From: Alphaproteobacteria bacterium
GTDB taxonomy: Bacteria; Pseudomonadota; Alphaproteobacteria; Micropepsales; Micropepsaceae
Length of the DNA stretch: 64,000 nt
Reading direction: 5' to 3'
Assembly: GCA_019241645.1 (NCBI GenBank)
Contig: JAFAWQ010000022.1
Coordinates: 124,001-188,000, forward strand
In this document: positions 42,880 through 55,439 of the stretch, one piece after another
How the letters are laid out: each line of letters opens with the position of its first letter
How positions within the stretch are numbered: position 1 is the first letter of the stretch
Made by a program: the position numbers and the translations under genes
Notes under the pieces: model-generated
Seen by the model: the letters and a program-made list of their open reading frames with translations, nothing else
Told to the model about the DNA's origin: nothing
Databases searched by the model: none

Positions 42880-43929
42880 TCATGCCGCGTCCTCCACTTC
42901 CGGTTCCTTTTTTCCCGCCTTGACCGCCGCCACATTGGCGGCCTTCTTTTCGCGCGCCTTGCGCCGATGTTCCTTCTCCGCGCGATCCGGCTCGGCAAAG
43001 CGCCGCAAGGCAAATTCCACGAAATCGCGCCGCGGTGGATCCATCTGGCTCACTTCCGGCAGGCTCTTCGCGAGCCGGAGAAGCTTGCGGCAGCCGGGTT
43101 CGTCCTTCTTCAGGTACGCCTCATAGGCGCAGGCCAGGATGAACTCGAAATTGTCGCTCTTGGGCATTTTGCGTTCGCCGATTTGCCGCCGCTGCAGTTG
43201 CGGGGGAGCGGCCTTTCGCTTTTCGACCAGTTCGCGCCCGAACGCATACAGTTCGATATCCTGTTCGTTGGCGCGGGTGAGACCCTCGAGAAGATCGGGA
43301 TGATCCGCAAGCGCCGCTCTTGCGGCAGACCAATTGGCCTCGCCAGGCGCCGCCGTGTTCCGCCACGGCAGATCGAGTTCGAGCCAGCCGTCTTTCGCCA
43401 ATCCCTTAATGTCGGTGGCAAGATCGTTCATCAGGAACAGATGGTCGAACTGGGCAAGACGCTGCTTTCCCACCGCCAGCCGTTTCGGCGATTGGCTGCG
43501 ATCCTGGTAGGTCAGCGTGTTGAGCAAATAGTTGCGCCGCCAGTTGATCCCCGTTTCGTTGCGCAGGAAGTGCGCGAATTTGCGGCCGCGTTCCTCCAGA
43601 GGCACGTCTTTCCCGGGCTTCTCGATGGCGAACTGCCAGGCCGAAAACAGCCGGTCGAGGGGCTCGCGCAGAATGACGATGTAGCGCACGCCCTCAAAAA
43701 ACTCATGCTCGTGCCCCAGCTGGTTCTCGTTGGCCACCAGCTGCCAGGTCCCCGCGGTGAGGAAGTAATGCTGCTCCTCGGGAGTCCACTTCCAGTACTT
43801 CAGGCGCTCTCCGGTCACATGGTTGATCGGGTTGCCGTTGGCGTTGGGCAGGAACATCGAGACGTTCTTGCGCGCGAGCGCGATGAAGGAGGAGCCGGCG
43901 CTCTTGCTGACATGGAGGAAGTAGAACAT
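42880..43929 (-). CDS. sulfotransferase family 2 protein
   Basis: A 349-residue PAPS-dependent sulfotransferase-like protein. The 5'-phosphosulfate loop is FLHVSKSAGSSFIAL, right at the N-terminus, and the 3'-phosphate-binding segment is YIVILREPLDRLFSAW. The C-terminus is a Lys/Glu/Ala-rich charged helix. These enzymes sulfate glycans or proteins; the acceptor is unknown. It lies 45 bp downstream of the coiled-coil/SH3 gene on the same strand, so co-transcription is likely. Confidence 0.85.
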   Translation of the reverse strand: MFYFLHVSKSAGSSFIALARKNVSMFLPNANGNPINHVTGERLKYWKWTPEEQHYFLTAGTWQLVANENQLGHEHEFFEGVRYIVILREPLDRLFSAWQFAIEKPGKDVPLEERGRKFAHFLRNETGINWRRNYLLNTLTYQDRSQSPKRLAVGKQRLAQFDHLFLMNDLATDIKGLAKDGWLELDLPWRNTAAPGEANWSAARAALADHPDLLEGLTRANEQDIELYAFGRELVEKRKAAPPQLQRRQIGERKMPKSDNFEFILACAYEAYLKKDEPGCRKLLRLAKSLPEVSQMDPPRRDFVEFALRRFAEPDRAEKEHRRKAREKKAANVAAVKAGKKEPEVEDAA

Positions 43930-43974
43930 GGGCCGATTGCTGGCCCATGGGCCGGGACGGTGTCAACAGGCCGT

Positions 43975-46782
43975 CTAATTCCCCGGCGGCAGCGCGATGC
44001 CGCTGTCCGTCAGCACGGCGCTGGAAACCCAGCCCTGCTTCTGACCGGCGCCTTCGCCGATTCGCACGAACACCCAGTTGCCCCGCCGCTCCATTGGAAC
44101 CACGTCCATGTTGCGCGCGAGCCTGGTCACCACGGCCGCAGTCTTCGACGGCTGCTCCCGCAGATTCGCGATGCGGACGCGCACGGTGGCGTGCGGTTCC
44201 GCCGAAGCAACGGCGGTGGTTGAAACGGGCGCCGCGCTGGAGAGCCCCGCCATGTGCAGCAGGGGCTGGAAGTTGTTGCCCAGCGACAGACTCCGCGGCC
44301 ACGATTCCGCCACCACGGGCTGCACGCGCGGAAACAGCATGAAGGCCAGCGCGAACAGGCAAGCGACGATGGAGCCGTCGCGGATCAGCCGTCGGCGGAA
44401 TTGCGCCTTGCGCTCTTCGGCGTCCAGCTGCCAGGCCGGCGTGTGGTCCTGGATGCCGACCGGAACCTGCTTCAGGCGGTCGCGCTCCTGCTCCAGCATG
44501 GCCTGGGCTTCGGCCAGCTCGATCTCGCGATGGTTGAGGCTGGCATGCGCGGCGGCAAGCTCGTACCGCAGCGCCTCCGAACAGGCCTTCTCGTCCGTGA
44601 TTTTTCCGGTCGCCTGCTGCAGCCGGTCCTCGAGATTTTGCAGGCGGGCCGCCATCTGCTCCTGCAACTTCGCTTCCGCGGCGGCCAGACGCGGTGCCTC
44701 GTCGGCGTGCCATTGCTTCTCGGCCTTGGCGAGGGCTGCGTCCGCATCCCTCTTCCAGGATAGCCGCGCCTTTTCGAGTTCCGCCGCAACGCTCTGCAAA
44801 GCCTGATCGGCGGTGATGCGAGCCCGCTCGGCCGCCGTGCGGGCATCACTGAGTTCGTTTTCGCGGCTCACGAGCGTCATTTCGAGCGCCGCGAGTTCAT
44901 CGCGCACGCGGCGCAGTTCGTCACCGGCCCCCGAGGCCTGAACCTGCAGCTCCGCCTGCGCCTGGGCCAGCGCGCTCTCTGCTTCCTGAAGCCTGGCGGT
45001 GGTTTCGGCAAGCGCCGGAGCGAACTGCGCCTTCCACTGCGCTTCCGCTGCCGCGAAACGTGCCGCTTCGCCGGCCTTGAAGCCTTCCTGCGCATCGGCG
45101 ATGGCCGCCGCCATTTCTTCCTGCCAGCGTTGACGCGCCTGATCGGCTTCCTTCGATGATCGCGCGCGCGCCTGACCGGCGGCGGATCGGGCCTTGACCA
45201 GATCGGCATCGCGCGCGGTGACGGCTGCCTGCAGCGCATTGATCTGATGCTGGCGCGCTTCGGCCTGGGCGCGCGCTTCGGCAAGCGCGGTTTCAGCGGC
45301 TTCGAGTCGCGTGTTCACTTCCGCGAGCGCTTTCGCGGACTGTGCCTTCCACCGCGCTTCAGCGGTCGCCAGTCGCGCGGCCTCGGCTGCCTTCCAGCTC
45401 TGTTCCGCAGCCTCGTTGTTGTCGCTTGTCTGCCTGGCCTGACTCTGCGCGTGTTCGACTGCGGCATGCGCTTCGGCGAGCTCCGCATTGCGTGCGGCAA
45501 GTGTTGCCTTGGTGCTGACCAGTTGTTCCCGCAGGCGGCGTGCCTCGGTATCGCTGTCAGCGCTGCTCTGCTTGGCTTCATTTCGCGCGTGTTCGGCGGC
45601 GTCGCGCGCTTCGGCAAGCTCCGCACCGCGGGCAGCGAGCGTGGCCTGAACGGCGGCCAGCTGTTCTCGCAAGCGCTTGAGCTCGGCATCGCTCTCGACG
45701 TTGCCCTGCTGCGCCTGGCTTCGTGCCAGTTCTGCCGTGGCGCGTGTTTCGGCAAGCTCGGCAACGCGCGCGGAAAGCGTCGCCTGCACGCTGACAAGCT
45801 GTTCGCGCAGGCGGCGCAGCTCGGCGTCGTTGTTCTTGGCGGGAGCAGCATTTGCGCTGGCGCTCGATTGTGCCTGGGCCAGCGCGTTCTCCGCCTGCTG
45901 GGTGCGGGCGCGCAATTCAGCGGCGGATTTTTCCGCTTGCGCGCGCCAACTCGCTTCGGCTGCCGAAAGGCGCGCGACTTCCGCGACCTTCCATTCGGCC
46001 TGCGCCTTGGCGAGTGCTGCCTGGGCTTCCAGCTGCCAGCGCTTGCGCGCGTCATCGAGAGTCTTCTGCGCGCTGGTGCTGGACCTGGATGTGCGCGACG
46101 ATTGCTCGGCCTCCCACGCCGTGCGCGCGCGTTCGAGTGCGGCCTCCGCTTCCGCCGCCGCTTCCGCCAGTTGCTCGCGCAGCCCGCGGTCCCATGCTTC
46201 CTCGGCGGCACTGAATTCCGCCTTCAGCGACTGGCGTGAGCGCTCCGCGTCTTCCGCCTGCCGGCGCACCGTCGCAAGATCGGTCTCGCGCGCGGCGAGC
46301 GAGGATTTAACCTTGACGAGTTCATCGCGCAGGCGCTGCACCTCGCCGCTGAGCGCGCCGGAAGCCGTGGTGGAACCGGCATCCTCCGGTCCGCAGGCAC
46401 GACCTGCGATCGGCAGATCGATGACGGTGAGGGTTTCTCCGTCGCCGCCTTCGAGTGTGATGATCCTGACGGCAAGCGTATGCGCCTCATAGAATTCGTG
46501 GGCGGGAAGATATTCGAGTCCGTCGAGCTCGTCTGGAGAGAGCGACCACGAACGGTCGCCATTGTTGCGCCCTTCCGAAAGGCGCGCGCCATGCATCAGG
46601 CGCTCCACCCGGACCGAGAGTCCGCGATAGCGGCGATACGGCGCCACCAGTGAAACGAGATCCAGCGGAATGGGCTCGCCCGTTGGCTCGGTGGCGGATC
46701 GCGCACGCTCCTGGGCCCGCGTTCCGCTTGCGGGTCGTCTGGCAAATCCACTGGCACGCTGGGCCATGCGCACGGCCTCCAT
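43975..46782 (-). CDS. large coiled-coil, single-pass membrane, SH3b protein
   Basis: A 935-residue protein. Around residues 35-115 is one copy of the RLSEGRNNGDRSWSLSPDELDGL domain, better known as a repeated Ig/cadherin-like unit in surface proteins. About 650 residues of Ala/Glu/Arg/Gln-rich coiled coil follow, including three near-exact 46-residue tandem repeats. Then comes a basic stop, one transmembrane helix (GSIVACLFALAFMLFP) and a bacterial SH3 domain (VRVRIANLREQPSKTAAVVTRLARNMDVVPMERRGNWVFVRIGEG). The predicted topology puts the coiled coil in the cytoplasm and SH3b in the periplasm. The function is unknown. An ATG 15 bp downstream of the first is an alternative start. Confidence 0.8.
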   Translation of the reverse strand: MEAVRMAQRASGFARRPASGTRAQERARSATEPTGEPIPLDLVSLVAPYRRYRGLSVRVERLMHGARLSEGRNNGDRSWSLSPDELDGLEYLPAHEFYEAHTLAVRIITLEGGDGETLTVIDLPIAGRACGPEDAGSTTASGALSGEVQRLRDELVKVKSSLAARETDLATVRRQAEDAERSRQSLKAEFSAAEEAWDRGLREQLAEAAAEAEAALERARTAWEAEQSSRTSRSSTSAQKTLDDARKRWQLEAQAALAKAQAEWKVAEVARLSAAEASWRAQAEKSAAELRARTQQAENALAQAQSSASANAAPAKNNDAELRRLREQLVSVQATLSARVAELAETRATAELARSQAQQGNVESDAELKRLREQLAAVQATLAARGAELAEARDAAEHARNEAKQSSADSDTEARRLREQLVSTKATLAARNAELAEAHAAVEHAQSQARQTSDNNEAAEQSWKAAEAARLATAEARWKAQSAKALAEVNTRLEAAETALAEARAQAEARQHQINALQAAVTARDADLVKARSAAGQARARSSKEADQARQRWQEEMAAAIADAQEGFKAGEAARFAAAEAQWKAQFAPALAETTARLQEAESALAQAQAELQVQASGAGDELRRVRDELAALEMTLVSRENELSDARTAAERARITADQALQSVAAELEKARLSWKRDADAALAKAEKQWHADEAPRLAAAEAKLQEQMAARLQNLEDRLQQATGKITDEKACSEALRYELAAAHASLNHREIELAEAQAMLEQERDRLKQVPVGIQDHTPAWQLDAEERKAQFRRRLIRDGSIVACLFALAFMLFPRVQPVVAESWPRSLSLGNNFQPLLHMAGLSSAAPVSTTAVASAEPHATVRVRIANLREQPSKTAAVVTRLARNMDVVPMERRGNWVFVRIGEGAGQKQGWVSSAVLTDSGIALPPGN
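45415..45828. repeat. three tandem 138-bp repeats in the coiled-coil gene
   Basis: Equivalent positions recur exactly 138 bp apart (for example 45526, 45664 and 45802), encoding 46-residue units that begin DAELRRLREQL, DAELKRLREQL and DTEARRLREQL. More diverged copies of the same heptad pattern occur on both sides. Confidence 0.85.
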
Positions 46783-46934
46783 ATGGTTGCTTTTGTACCC
46801 GCCACAGCGGCGAAAAGCGGCTCAATTCTGGTAAATGGGTAAAGCAATAGTGTGCACGTCGCAGTGCAAACAGTTTCTTAACGTGCAGCCAATTGCTTGC
46901 GTGGTATTGTCTCGCGGACAGGCGAAAGAAGAAG

Positions 46935-47864
46935 ATGGTGCGCAAGGTTTGGATCGTGGCTGTCTGCGCCGCAGCGCTGCCGCTGCAGGCAGGCCACGCG
47001 GCCGTTAATATTGTTGGACAGGCGGTCCAGAAGCTTCACCTTTCGCCACAGCAATTGCTGTCCCTGCGCGATTTCCTTGGGGCGTTTAGTCGCGGCGTGC
47101 AAGTCGAGGGTTCCGGCAACAATCTGTTCATCATGCGGGATGCCGCCAGCATGCGGTATGCGGGCGCGTTCGCACTGACGGTGCTGAGCGACGGCAGCCT
47201 GCAGATCGACCGGGTCAGCGGTCCCGCAACGCTGGTGCGCGAGCGGAGCGTGCTGGTGCCGCTGCGCCTCAATCCCAAATCGCGGGCGCAGGTCGTGGCG
47301 GCGCTCACCGGATCGCAGTTGCTTGGCGGAGTCCCGGCATCCTCGGAAGATGTGGCCGTTGCGCCGCCGCCGCCCGCGCTGCCGCAGGAACAGCTCGCGG
47401 GGCTCGCCCCCACGGAAACGGCGGCGAGCGGATCCCTTAACGAAAGCCGGGCGGTGTTTTTCCGCGATGGCTCGGGGTGGTCGCGAACCTTGCGCGTGAC
47501 GCTGGCACAGAATACGGCGCCGGCCGACGCCCTGCGGATCGCGGATCGCTATTATCCGGCGATGCAGAGCGACGGCACACAAGTGTGGCGCGACAGCGCC
47601 ATCGAGATCGACAGCGATCTGCCGATGGCCTTTGGCGAGCTCCAGGCCCGGTACGCCTGCGTTTCGCGCTCCGCCTGCACCGCGCAGCGCGCCGTCGCAC
47701 CGTCCGCCTTTCATTTCGTCCGCTGGGGAAGGCAGCCGGTGGCCGCGGTGCCGCCTTCGCTGCTGGCGCAACTGGTGCCAGCCGCCACCCCCGTGCAGCC
47801 GGAAATCGGCACGCCGGAACCGGTTCCGGAGCCCGCGCCGCCGCCTTCGCCGCCCAACAATTAG
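46935..47864 (+). CDS. exported protein, unknown function
   Basis: A 309-residue protein. The start MVRKVWIVAVCAAALPLQAGHA gives a signal peptide, and an upstream in-frame ATG at 46893 is less likely. The mature part has a FLGAFSRGVQVEGSGNNLFIMRDA region and beta-rich segments, a second domain (VFFRDGSGWSRTLRVTLAQ...YACVSRSACTAQ) with a likely disulfide, and a Pro-rich tail. It is divergent from the coiled-coil gene. No family is recognised. Confidence 0.6.
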   Translation: MVRKVWIVAVCAAALPLQAGHAAVNIVGQAVQKLHLSPQQLLSLRDFLGAFSRGVQVEGSGNNLFIMRDAASMRYAGAFALTVLSDGSLQIDRVSGPATLVRERSVLVPLRLNPKSRAQVVAALTGSQLLGGVPASSEDVAVAPPPPALPQEQLAGLAPTETAASGSLNESRAVFFRDGSGWSRTLRVTLAQNTAPADALRIADRYYPAMQSDGTQVWRDSAIEIDSDLPMAFGELQARYACVSRSACTAQRAVAPSAFHFVRWGRQPVAAVPPSLLAQLVPAATPVQPEIGTPEPVPEPAPPPSPPNN

Positions 47865-47937: not shown

Positions 47938-48468
47938 ATGGCGAAAGCGCAGTTTCACAAGAATCAACGCGTGTATGTGAAGCCGGTCGGCACCTGGGCG
48001 CTGGTCGAGCGGCTGGTGCCGCATTGGGCGAAGGGGCTAGATGAGCCCATCCGCATTTTCTACGATGTGGGTTTGGGGCGCGAGTTCGCGGCCGACGAGC
48101 TGCAGGCCGATCAGCCGCTGAACAACGGCCGGGTCAACAACCGCGAGCACTGGCGGATCGTCCGTGCCCGGAACAAGTGGCAGCCAGTGGAGGATTGCGC
48201 GCGCCATCCGCTTCCCGGCACCTATCCGGTGGTGGTGACAGGCGATGCGGAATGGGGCGGCTGGCGGGTGCCGGGCGCCGAATACGATCTCTCGCCGGAG
48301 AAGGTCGAGCAGCAGGCGCGGCTGATCGCCAATGCGCCGCGCCTGGTCAGCATGGCAAGCGAGCTGATCGAATGGGCCCGCAGTTCCGCCGAGGACATGC
48401 CGGCCGAGCTGGTGCAGCTTGCGCACGATGCGCAGGACCTGCTCGCCAGCGTCGACGAAAACGCCTGA
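47938..48468 (+). CDS. conserved hypothetical protein
   Basis: A 176-residue soluble protein with no signal or membrane segment. It begins MAKAQFHKNQRVYVKPVGTWALVERLVPHW, a KOW/SH3-like start, and contains PIRIFYDVGLGREFAADELQ and GTYPVVVTGDAEWGGWRVPGAEYDLSPEKVEQQARLIANAPRLVSMASELIEW. The last part is reminiscent of phage-like helical regions, but I cannot name the family. A TTAA-N7-TTAA motif lies upstream. Confidence 0.65.
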   Translation: MAKAQFHKNQRVYVKPVGTWALVERLVPHWAKGLDEPIRIFYDVGLGREFAADELQADQPLNNGRVNNREHWRIVRARNKWQPVEDCARHPLPGTYPVVVTGDAEWGGWRVPGAEYDLSPEKVEQQARLIANAPRLVSMASELIEWARSSAEDMPAELVQLAHDAQDLLASVDENA

Positions 48469-52201: not shown

Positions 52202-52582
52202 TTAATGCGCCGGTGGTCCAGGCCAACCATCGCCGGGTTCATCGATCTGCGCATCGATAGCCTGTATTGCGGCCTTCAGAGCGGGCAAGTGCCGCTGGAC
52301 AACATTCCATACGACAATATCCGAGATTCGGTGGTACTCGTGACGCAGGATATTGCCGATCCCCATGATCTGTGACCAGGGCACGTCAGGATACGCAGTC
52401 TGAATGTCGGAGGGAATGCGGCGAGCAGCTTCGGAGACGATCTCGATTCCGCGCTGCACGCCATGGCGAAGCAACCAGTCTCGATTGAAGTCGTCGAGCG
52501 TTTTTCCCGCTGTAGCGGCTTCCATACCTTGAATGGAGTCTAGGATGGCGCGCAAAGCTGGCCTAACCAGCCGATCAGTCAT
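52202..52582 (-). CDS. hepT: HepT-like toxin (DUF86)
   Basis: A 126-residue HepT/DUF86 protein, a HEPN-fold RNase toxin. The conserved segment is MGIGNILRHEYHRISDIVVWNVV, carrying the Arg/His cluster of the HEPN active site. It is encoded immediately after the MntA-type nucleotidyltransferase, with a one-base overlap; in characterised pairs MntA AMPylates and silences HepT. Confidence 0.88.
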   Translation of the reverse strand: MTDRLVRPALRAILDSIQGMEAATAGKTLDDFNRDWLLRHGVQRGIEIVSEAARRIPSDIQTAYPDVPWSQIMGIGNILRHEYHRISDIVVWNVVQRHLPALKAAIQAIDAQIDEPGDGWPGPPAH

Positions 52583-52878
52583 CAGAAGATGCGTTCAGCG
52601 GACGCTTCGATCCGCTCGCTTAGCAGCGGGTCCAAACTGTCCTTGGTCGTCACATCTACTGGGACGCCGAGATGCCTCTCGAGCAATTGTTTGATCCCTG
52701 CAAGTTCGACAAGCGAAAAATGCCCTCTACGGTCGTAGTCCACGAAAAGGTCTATATCGCTCGTTTTCGCCGCAGTTTCACGCACTGTCGAACCGAAGAG
52801 ATACAATTCTGTTGCGCCGAGTGCCTTCACGGCTGAGGCTTGCTCTCTGAGGACCGCGATGGCTTCCGCTTTTTCCAT
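52582..52878 (-). CDS. mntA: MntA-like nucleotidyltransferase antitoxin
   Basis: A 98-residue minimal nucleotidyltransferase. The motif LYLFGSTVRETAAKTSDIDLFVDYD fits GS-x10-D-x-D exactly, the polymerase-beta-like catalytic signature. It pairs with the HepT-like gene directly downstream. Confidence 0.88.
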   Translation of the reverse strand: MEKAEAIAVLREQASAVKALGATELYLFGSTVRETAAKTSDIDLFVDYDRRGHFSLVELAGIKQLLERHLGVPVDVTTKDSLDPLLSERIEASAERIF

Positions 52879-54837: not shown

Positions 54838-55038
54838 ATGGCCACCAATCTCGCCTTGGACCCCAAATTGATCGATCAAGCTCTTGCGGTCAGCGGGGAG
54901 CGGACGAAAAAGGCGGCGGTCACACGCGCGCTTCAGGAATTCATTGCGCGCAGAAATCAAAAGCGCCTGCTCGAGCTGATGAATACGCTCGAGTGGGACA
55001 GGGAATTTGACTACAAGAAGCAACGTTCCCGCCGTTGA
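54838..55038 (+). CDS. vapB: VapB-type antitoxin
   Basis: A 66-residue protein: MATNLALDPKLIDQALAVSGERTKKAAVTRALQEFIARRNQKRLLELMNTLEWD. It resembles the ribbon-helix-helix-like type II antitoxins (DUF2191/VapB of RHH type). Strong AAGGAGGG upstream. It overlaps the toxin start by four bases. Confidence 0.85.
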   Translation: MATNLALDPKLIDQALAVSGERTKKAAVTRALQEFIARRNQKRLLELMNTLEWDREFDYKKQRSRR

Positions 55039-55439
55039 ACCTTTTCGTCGATACCAGTGTTTGGTCGCTTGCTTTCCGAAGGGATGCGCCCGCAATTGCG
55101 CCCGAGGTCGGCAGGCTTGCGCGCGCACTCGACTCCGGCGAACTCGTCTTTACCACGGGGATTGTGCTGCAGGAGTTGTTGCAGGGCTTTGCAGGGCCAA
55201 AAGCGCGCGATGAGATTTTGTCGCGGTTTACATCGTTTCCCCTGCTGCAGCCTACGCGCGAGGATCACATTGGGGCGGCAGACTTGCGCAACCTCTGTCG
55301 GCGTGCCGGTGTTCAGGTTGGCACCATAGATGCGCTACTTGCGCAGTTATGTATTCGCCACGGATTGATGATACTGAGTACAGACAAGGATTTTGAGACG
55401 ATGGCATCATACACGCCACTGAAACTTTGGCTGCCGTGA
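55035..55439 (+). CDS. vapC: PIN-domain toxin VapC
   Basis: A 134-residue PIN RNase. Acidic residues: Asp6 in LFVDTSVWS, Glu47 in VLQELLQG, Asp98 in GTIDALLAQL, and the STDKDF terminal acidic pair. The start is a TTG overlapping the vapB stop (TTGA). Its partner is the RHH-type antitoxin just upstream. Confidence 0.88.
   Translation: MNLFVDTSVWSLAFRRDAPAIAPEVGRLARALDSGELVFTTGIVLQELLQGFAGPKARDEILSRFTSFPLLQPTREDHIGAADLRNLCRRAGVQVGTIDALLAQLCIRHGLMILSTDKDFETMASYTPLKLWLP

Follow-up and report, generated by a model that had tools for sequence, protein, structure and literature searches.

The window analysed here, a 64,000-nucleotide stretch taken as a whole, encodes on its reverse strand a large coiled-coil membrane protein followed directly by a PAPS-type sulfotransferase (Table 1). 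The coiled-coil protein consists of an Ig-like N-terminal domain (hereafter N-domain), a helix of about 640 residues, one membrane helix, and a C-terminal SH3b domain. The first-pass annotation, made from the DNA letters and their open reading frames, described a cadherin-like domain, a long coil with 138-bp repeats, a membrane helix, an SH3b domain and a sulfotransferase at 45 bp; that layout is confirmed and its coordinates hold. The start of the coiled-coil gene is probably codon 6, at 46767 (MAQRASGFARRP..., for a protein of 930 aa), because a GGAGG at 46780-46776 lies 8 nt 5' of this second ATG and because the closest homologs, L055 and L056, begin with the same N-terminus, MAQR..GFARRP.

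Table 1. Features of the coiled-coil and sulfotransferase genes (positions in the window)
Feature	Coordinates	Strand	Evidence
Coiled-coil/SH3b membrane protein gene	43975..46782	(-)	ORF, 935 aa as called
N-terminal Ig-like (RTX/cadherin-type) domain, residues 35-132	46387..46680	(-)	38-sequence alignment, AlphaFold2 model, RTX adhesin matches
Long helical, predicted coiled-coil region, residues ~145-790	44413..46350	(-)	Hydrophobic periodicity, low proline, recurring motif
138-bp (46-residue) tandem repeats, 2.7 copies	45453..45829	(-)	Tandem Repeats Finder, score 341, 71% matches, no indels
Single membrane helix, residues ~799-817, Lys/Arg on N-terminal side	44332..44388	(-)	Hydropathy 1.97; charge bias in homologs
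SH3b domain, residues 872-924, predicted periplasmic	44011..44169	(-)	PF08239 (SH3_3), E 2.6e-6, 27.9 bits
TTGAC-N19-CAGCAAT element, candidate promoter or regulator site of the sulfotransferase	43936..43966	(-)	Conserved in three gene pairs
PAPS-type sulfotransferase (Sulfotransfer_2), 349 aa, basic helical C-terminal extension	42880..43929	(-)	PF03567, 24.5 bits

Several other genes of the window deserve mention. A Ku protein (PF02735; 41570-42745, +) is encoded convergently with the sulfotransferase gene, and synteny with the two relatives stops there. The two genes upstream of the coiled-coil gene (46893-47864, + and 47938-48468, +) have no Pfam match; the second encodes a product that is better conserved than the coiled-coil protein, with 79-86% identity in the two relatives. 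Farther away, a HepT-like ribonuclease and a minimal nucleotidyltransferase are encoded next to each other (52202-52878, -), likely a HepT/MntA toxin-antitoxin pair, and a PIN-domain protein of VapC-like size is found at 55035-55439 (+).

Domains of the coiled-coil protein

A profile search identifies the N-domain, LSEGRNNGDRSW, as the repeat unit of RTX/cadherin-type adhesins. Its profile matches tandem repeats in large proteins throughout the class, among them Thalassospira proteins to which Pfam assigns Cadherin_5 and RTX repeats, so the original "cadherin-like" label was right. RTX adhesins carry many tandem copies of their domains together with RTX calcium repeats, and are exported. The coiled-coil protein has the LSxGxNNGDGSWxL domain in common with such adhesins (Cadherin_5/Big_9 with HemolysinCabind), but in a single copy, fused to a coil and a membrane helix and lacking an export signal; Pfam finds no HemolysinCabind match or RTX nonapeptide repeats in it. 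AlphaFold2, run on 38 sequences, models the N-domain as a confident beta-sandwich (pLDDT 93.6, pTM 0.85). Foldseek finds no match to this model below E 0.001, and VIA-align recovers nothing beyond the common Ig-like arrangement (best Z 7.1; Z 6.8 for the RTX-like domain of Aeromonas, 9cse), and the fold, as modelled, tells "beta-sandwich" and no more. A PDB sequence search with the N-domain gives no credible relative; the recA entries it returned were rejected, as no stretch passes on its own. The N-domain is the best conserved part of the protein, with an E, a G and an R invariant over the 38 sequences.

The middle section of about 640 residues is rich in Ala, Glu, Arg, Leu and Gln, contains 0.8% proline, and has a hydrophobic periodicity of 3.6 residues that exceeds each of 100 shuffles. 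The three 138-bp tandem repeats reported at first pass are real, measuring 2.7 copies with a period of 138 bp and 71% matches. A second, more diffuse coil motif, AEA-WKAAEAARLAAAEA-W, occurs four times in the coiled-coil protein; it has 57 matches in 40 proteins, versus 0.1 in shuffles. Homologs range in length from 512 to 1113 aa, most of the variation falling in the coil, and the idea that protein length tracks motif copy number was rejected (r = 0.13). Matches to SMC proteins in NCBIfam were likewise set aside, being far under the cut-off and reflecting coil composition.

Predicted topology and spread of the family

No hydrophobic signal sequence is present at the N-terminus of the coiled-coil protein. 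The 37 complete or nearly complete homologs each have one hydrophobic segment, 50-190 residues before the C-terminus, and in 33 of them its N-terminal flank carries more Lys and Arg than its C-terminal flank (equal in two, fewer in two). According to the positive-inside rule, the Lys/Arg-rich flank of a membrane helix stays cytoplasmic, and the N-domain and coil are therefore predicted to lie inside and the SH3b domain in the periplasm. The SH3b match, at 27.9 bits, is just above the curated PF08239 cut-off of 27, and Pfam finds SH3_3 in all 36 homologs scanned. A cytoplasmic N-domain, as the charge bias and absent signal peptide would have it, would be unusual for a domain otherwise known from exported adhesins.

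Within the same taxonomic family, profile searching finds the N-domain in 36 of 96 genomes, one gene each, and three more members of the class share the architecture (L158, L159, L160). The coil, membrane helix and SH3b domain are present in the N-domain homologs examined in full. Judged by its sequence, the coiled-coil protein is a member of a real, uncharacterised family of bacterial membrane proteins, whose layout is of a known kind; searches of Pfam, NCBIfam and the literature turned up no name for it. A conserved operon partner, sought around the homologs, is absent outside small sub-clades, and the flanks differ from one sub-clade to another. For example, a Ser/Thr kinase with Cache and HAMP domains (L034 12046-13788, +) lies 23 bp downstream of the homolog in one genome only, and one sub-clade has a same-strand gene 30-121 bp after the coiled-coil gene (L026 7663-8265, L029 7239-7859, L142 5122-5703), the L026 copy of which encodes a DUF1003 protein with a coiled-coil-like tail.

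The sulfotransferase and the gap before it

The claim of a PAPS-type sulfotransferase 45 bp downstream stands: the gap, 43930-43974, is 45 bp, and the Sulfotransfer_2 (PF03567) match at 24.5 bits clears the cut-off of 22. The PAPS-binding motifs are kept as HVSKSAGSSF and REPLDRLFSAW (5'-PSB and 3'-PB), and the forms HxSKxAGSSF and REPxDRLFSxW, largely invariant, are common to the three sulfotransferase homologs. The sole PDB match is a weak one, to heparan sulfate 6-O-sulfotransferase (E 0.098), spanning the 5'- and 3'-phosphate motifs. The enzyme resembles Sulfotransfer_2 members such as this one in its Pfam match and in that alignment, and differs in its basic C-terminal extension and in having close relatives in two other genomes only. 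A structure model from the three sequences (pLDDT 42.8) is too poor for a fold search. An APS kinase is encoded in the same genome, so PAPS can be made. The genome (2.9 Mb) has 21 PF00685 (Sulfotransfer_1) and 7 PF03567 matches, possibly overlapping sets, several of which cluster on contigs C16 and C10 inside very long open frames, with others on C53 and elsewhere.

Within the family the sulfotransferase is present in three of 96 genomes, and a search of 385 class genomes finds it nowhere else. Wherever it occurs (3/3) it lies directly downstream of the coiled-coil gene on the same strand, with gaps of 45, 69 and 64 bp. In the two relatives, L055 and L056, the coiled-coil protein is about 58-61% identical and the sulfotransferase 65-66% identical. 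The upstream genes are also common to both and the window; genes of the window further downstream of the sulfotransferase have no counterpart in the fetched relatives.

All three gaps contain TTGAC...CAGCAAT at a spacing of 18-19. A shared spaced pair of this kind (5+6 exact bases) arises in none of 20000 shuffles, a test that ignores common descent; despite that limit, the fourfold-degenerate sites are only 30-43% identical, nearly saturated, so that neutral positions have been scrambled. Conservation of the element against this background suggests that the sulfotransferase has its own promoter. The TTGAC half resembles a -35 box and the CAGCAAT half is not a good -10 box; a promoter here is a guess, and the element may be a regulator site. 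The pattern was rejected as a genome-wide promoter class, since elsewhere in the genome it matches exactly only once, within an ORF.

The two genes could form a dedicated pair, though we think this unlikely: as a scaffold, the coiled-coil protein would hold the sulfotransferase at the membrane or pole and so localise the sulfation of its target, whether a glycan, a lipid or a protein of the envelope. The common strand, short gaps and unbroken adjacency fit a functional link, as does the encoded APS kinase for PAPS supply; the Ku-side genes lack counterparts in either relative, so the pair ends the syntenic block, and the near-saturated fourfold sites imply that there was time enough for separation. 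However, of the 36 family genomes with the N-domain, 33 lack the enzyme, and the three that have it are one sub-lineage sharing upstream genes, and so do not count as independent events. A promoter-like element is conserved in the gap, and with more than 20 other sulfotransferase matches in the genome, one near any gene is unsurprising. The pairing with a modification enzyme put forward by the first-pass annotation is thus mostly unsupported. Conservation across genomes, which it proposed checking, holds as adjacency wherever the enzyme occurs and fails in the remaining N-domain genomes; of what it named as refuting the idea, namely no co-occurrence together with separate promoters, half is found. 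A dedicated scaffold and modification enzyme is weakly supported.

A candidate envelope scaffold

The account that we favour, as somewhat more likely than not, is a joint one. It takes the coiled-coil protein to be an envelope-spanning scaffold or tether, and the sulfotransferase to be a separate PAPS-dependent enzyme of the cytoplasm that one small sub-lineage has gained or retained. The enzyme would probably have a promoter of its own and would not be needed as a partner. This account builds on the domains, architecture, distribution and adjacency observed above. The protein would be single-pass in the inner membrane, holding the Ig-like domain and the coil of about 640 residues in the cytoplasm, while the helix near the C-terminus would cross the membrane and leave the SH3b domain in the periplasm. 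There the SH3b domain would most likely bind peptidoglycan or a wall enzyme; SH3b domains bind other ligands too. The coil may oligomerise and the Ig-like domain may recruit a partner in the cytoplasm, with the whole complex anchored to the wall through SH3b; PodJ and HubP/FimV work in this manner using different terminal domains. We read the protein in this way because, apart from those terminal domains, it shares its layout with PodJ or HubP/FimV. The envelope-spanning scaffold first proposed at annotation gains from the architecture kept in homologs and from the charge bias around the helix, and remains a prediction.

PodJ of Caulobacter crescentus has large cytoplasmic N-terminal coiled coils, one membrane anchor, and a periplasmic wall-binding C-terminal part (PMC8980812). 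The coiled-coil protein is like it in its predicted cytoplasmic coil, one membrane helix and periplasmic C-terminus, and both are alphaproteobacterial. PodJ, which localises to the cell pole and recruits PleC, contains six distinct coils and a disordered region, and its periplasmic part holds TPR and peptidoglycan-binding domains. The coiled-coil protein instead has a single long coil with repeats in it, between an Ig-like domain at the N-terminal end and SH3b at the other; the TPR/Sel1 and peptidoglycan-binding domains of PodJ are absent from it (Pfam finds only SH3-type domains) and from the homologs scanned. The HubP/FimV polar landmarks are single-pass scaffolds that span the envelope, with a long part in the cytoplasm and a periplasmic domain directed at the wall (PMC12918733), much as is predicted here with SH3b on the periplasmic side. 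They differ in a periplasmic LysM-like domain, an acidic cytoplasmic part and a C-terminal FimV TPR, and carry neither SH3b nor an Ig-like domain; Pfam and NCBIfam give no LysM, TPR or FimV match in the coiled-coil protein. Because the defining periplasmic and TPR domains of both systems are not found, the coiled-coil protein, on these domain searches, belongs to neither.

A passive tether or envelope ruler, in which the coil links membrane and wall mechanically or sets the distance between them with no clients, seems to us improbable, about as much so as the dedicated pair. It accords with the variable length of the coil, with its internal repeats, and with the lack of any conserved partner gene, but the strong conservation of the N-domain, including its invariant residues, suggests a specific ligand, and one would expect a ruler to be constant in length. 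A surface or exported protein, with the Ig-like domain and coil facing outward, is very improbable even though the N-domain elsewhere mostly forms the tandem repeats of giant RTX adhesins, given the absent signal sequence and RTX repeats, the C-terminal position of the SH3b domain, and a helix near the C-terminus with the positive charges N-terminal to it in 33 of 37 homologs.

The scaffold reading that we prefer can be carried further. An adhesin-type Ig-like domain may have moved inside to become the client-binding head of the scaffold, making it a non-homologous counterpart of PodJ and HubP in this alphaproteobacterial family, with the sulfotransferase as a client in one sub-lineage, so that an envelope component would be sulfated at a particular site within the cell; we regard this extended version as quite doubtful. 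The sulfotransferase part would carry little weight unless the enzyme is physically linked to the scaffold. If the predicted orientation is right, the coiled-coil protein would represent an undescribed scaffold family, in a lineage whose cell biology has been little studied, that is arranged like PodJ and HubP but has end domains unrelated to theirs. There would then be more than one set of parts from which a wall-anchored coiled-coil scaffold can be built, and a cytoplasmic role for a domain known chiefly from adhesins that are secreted.
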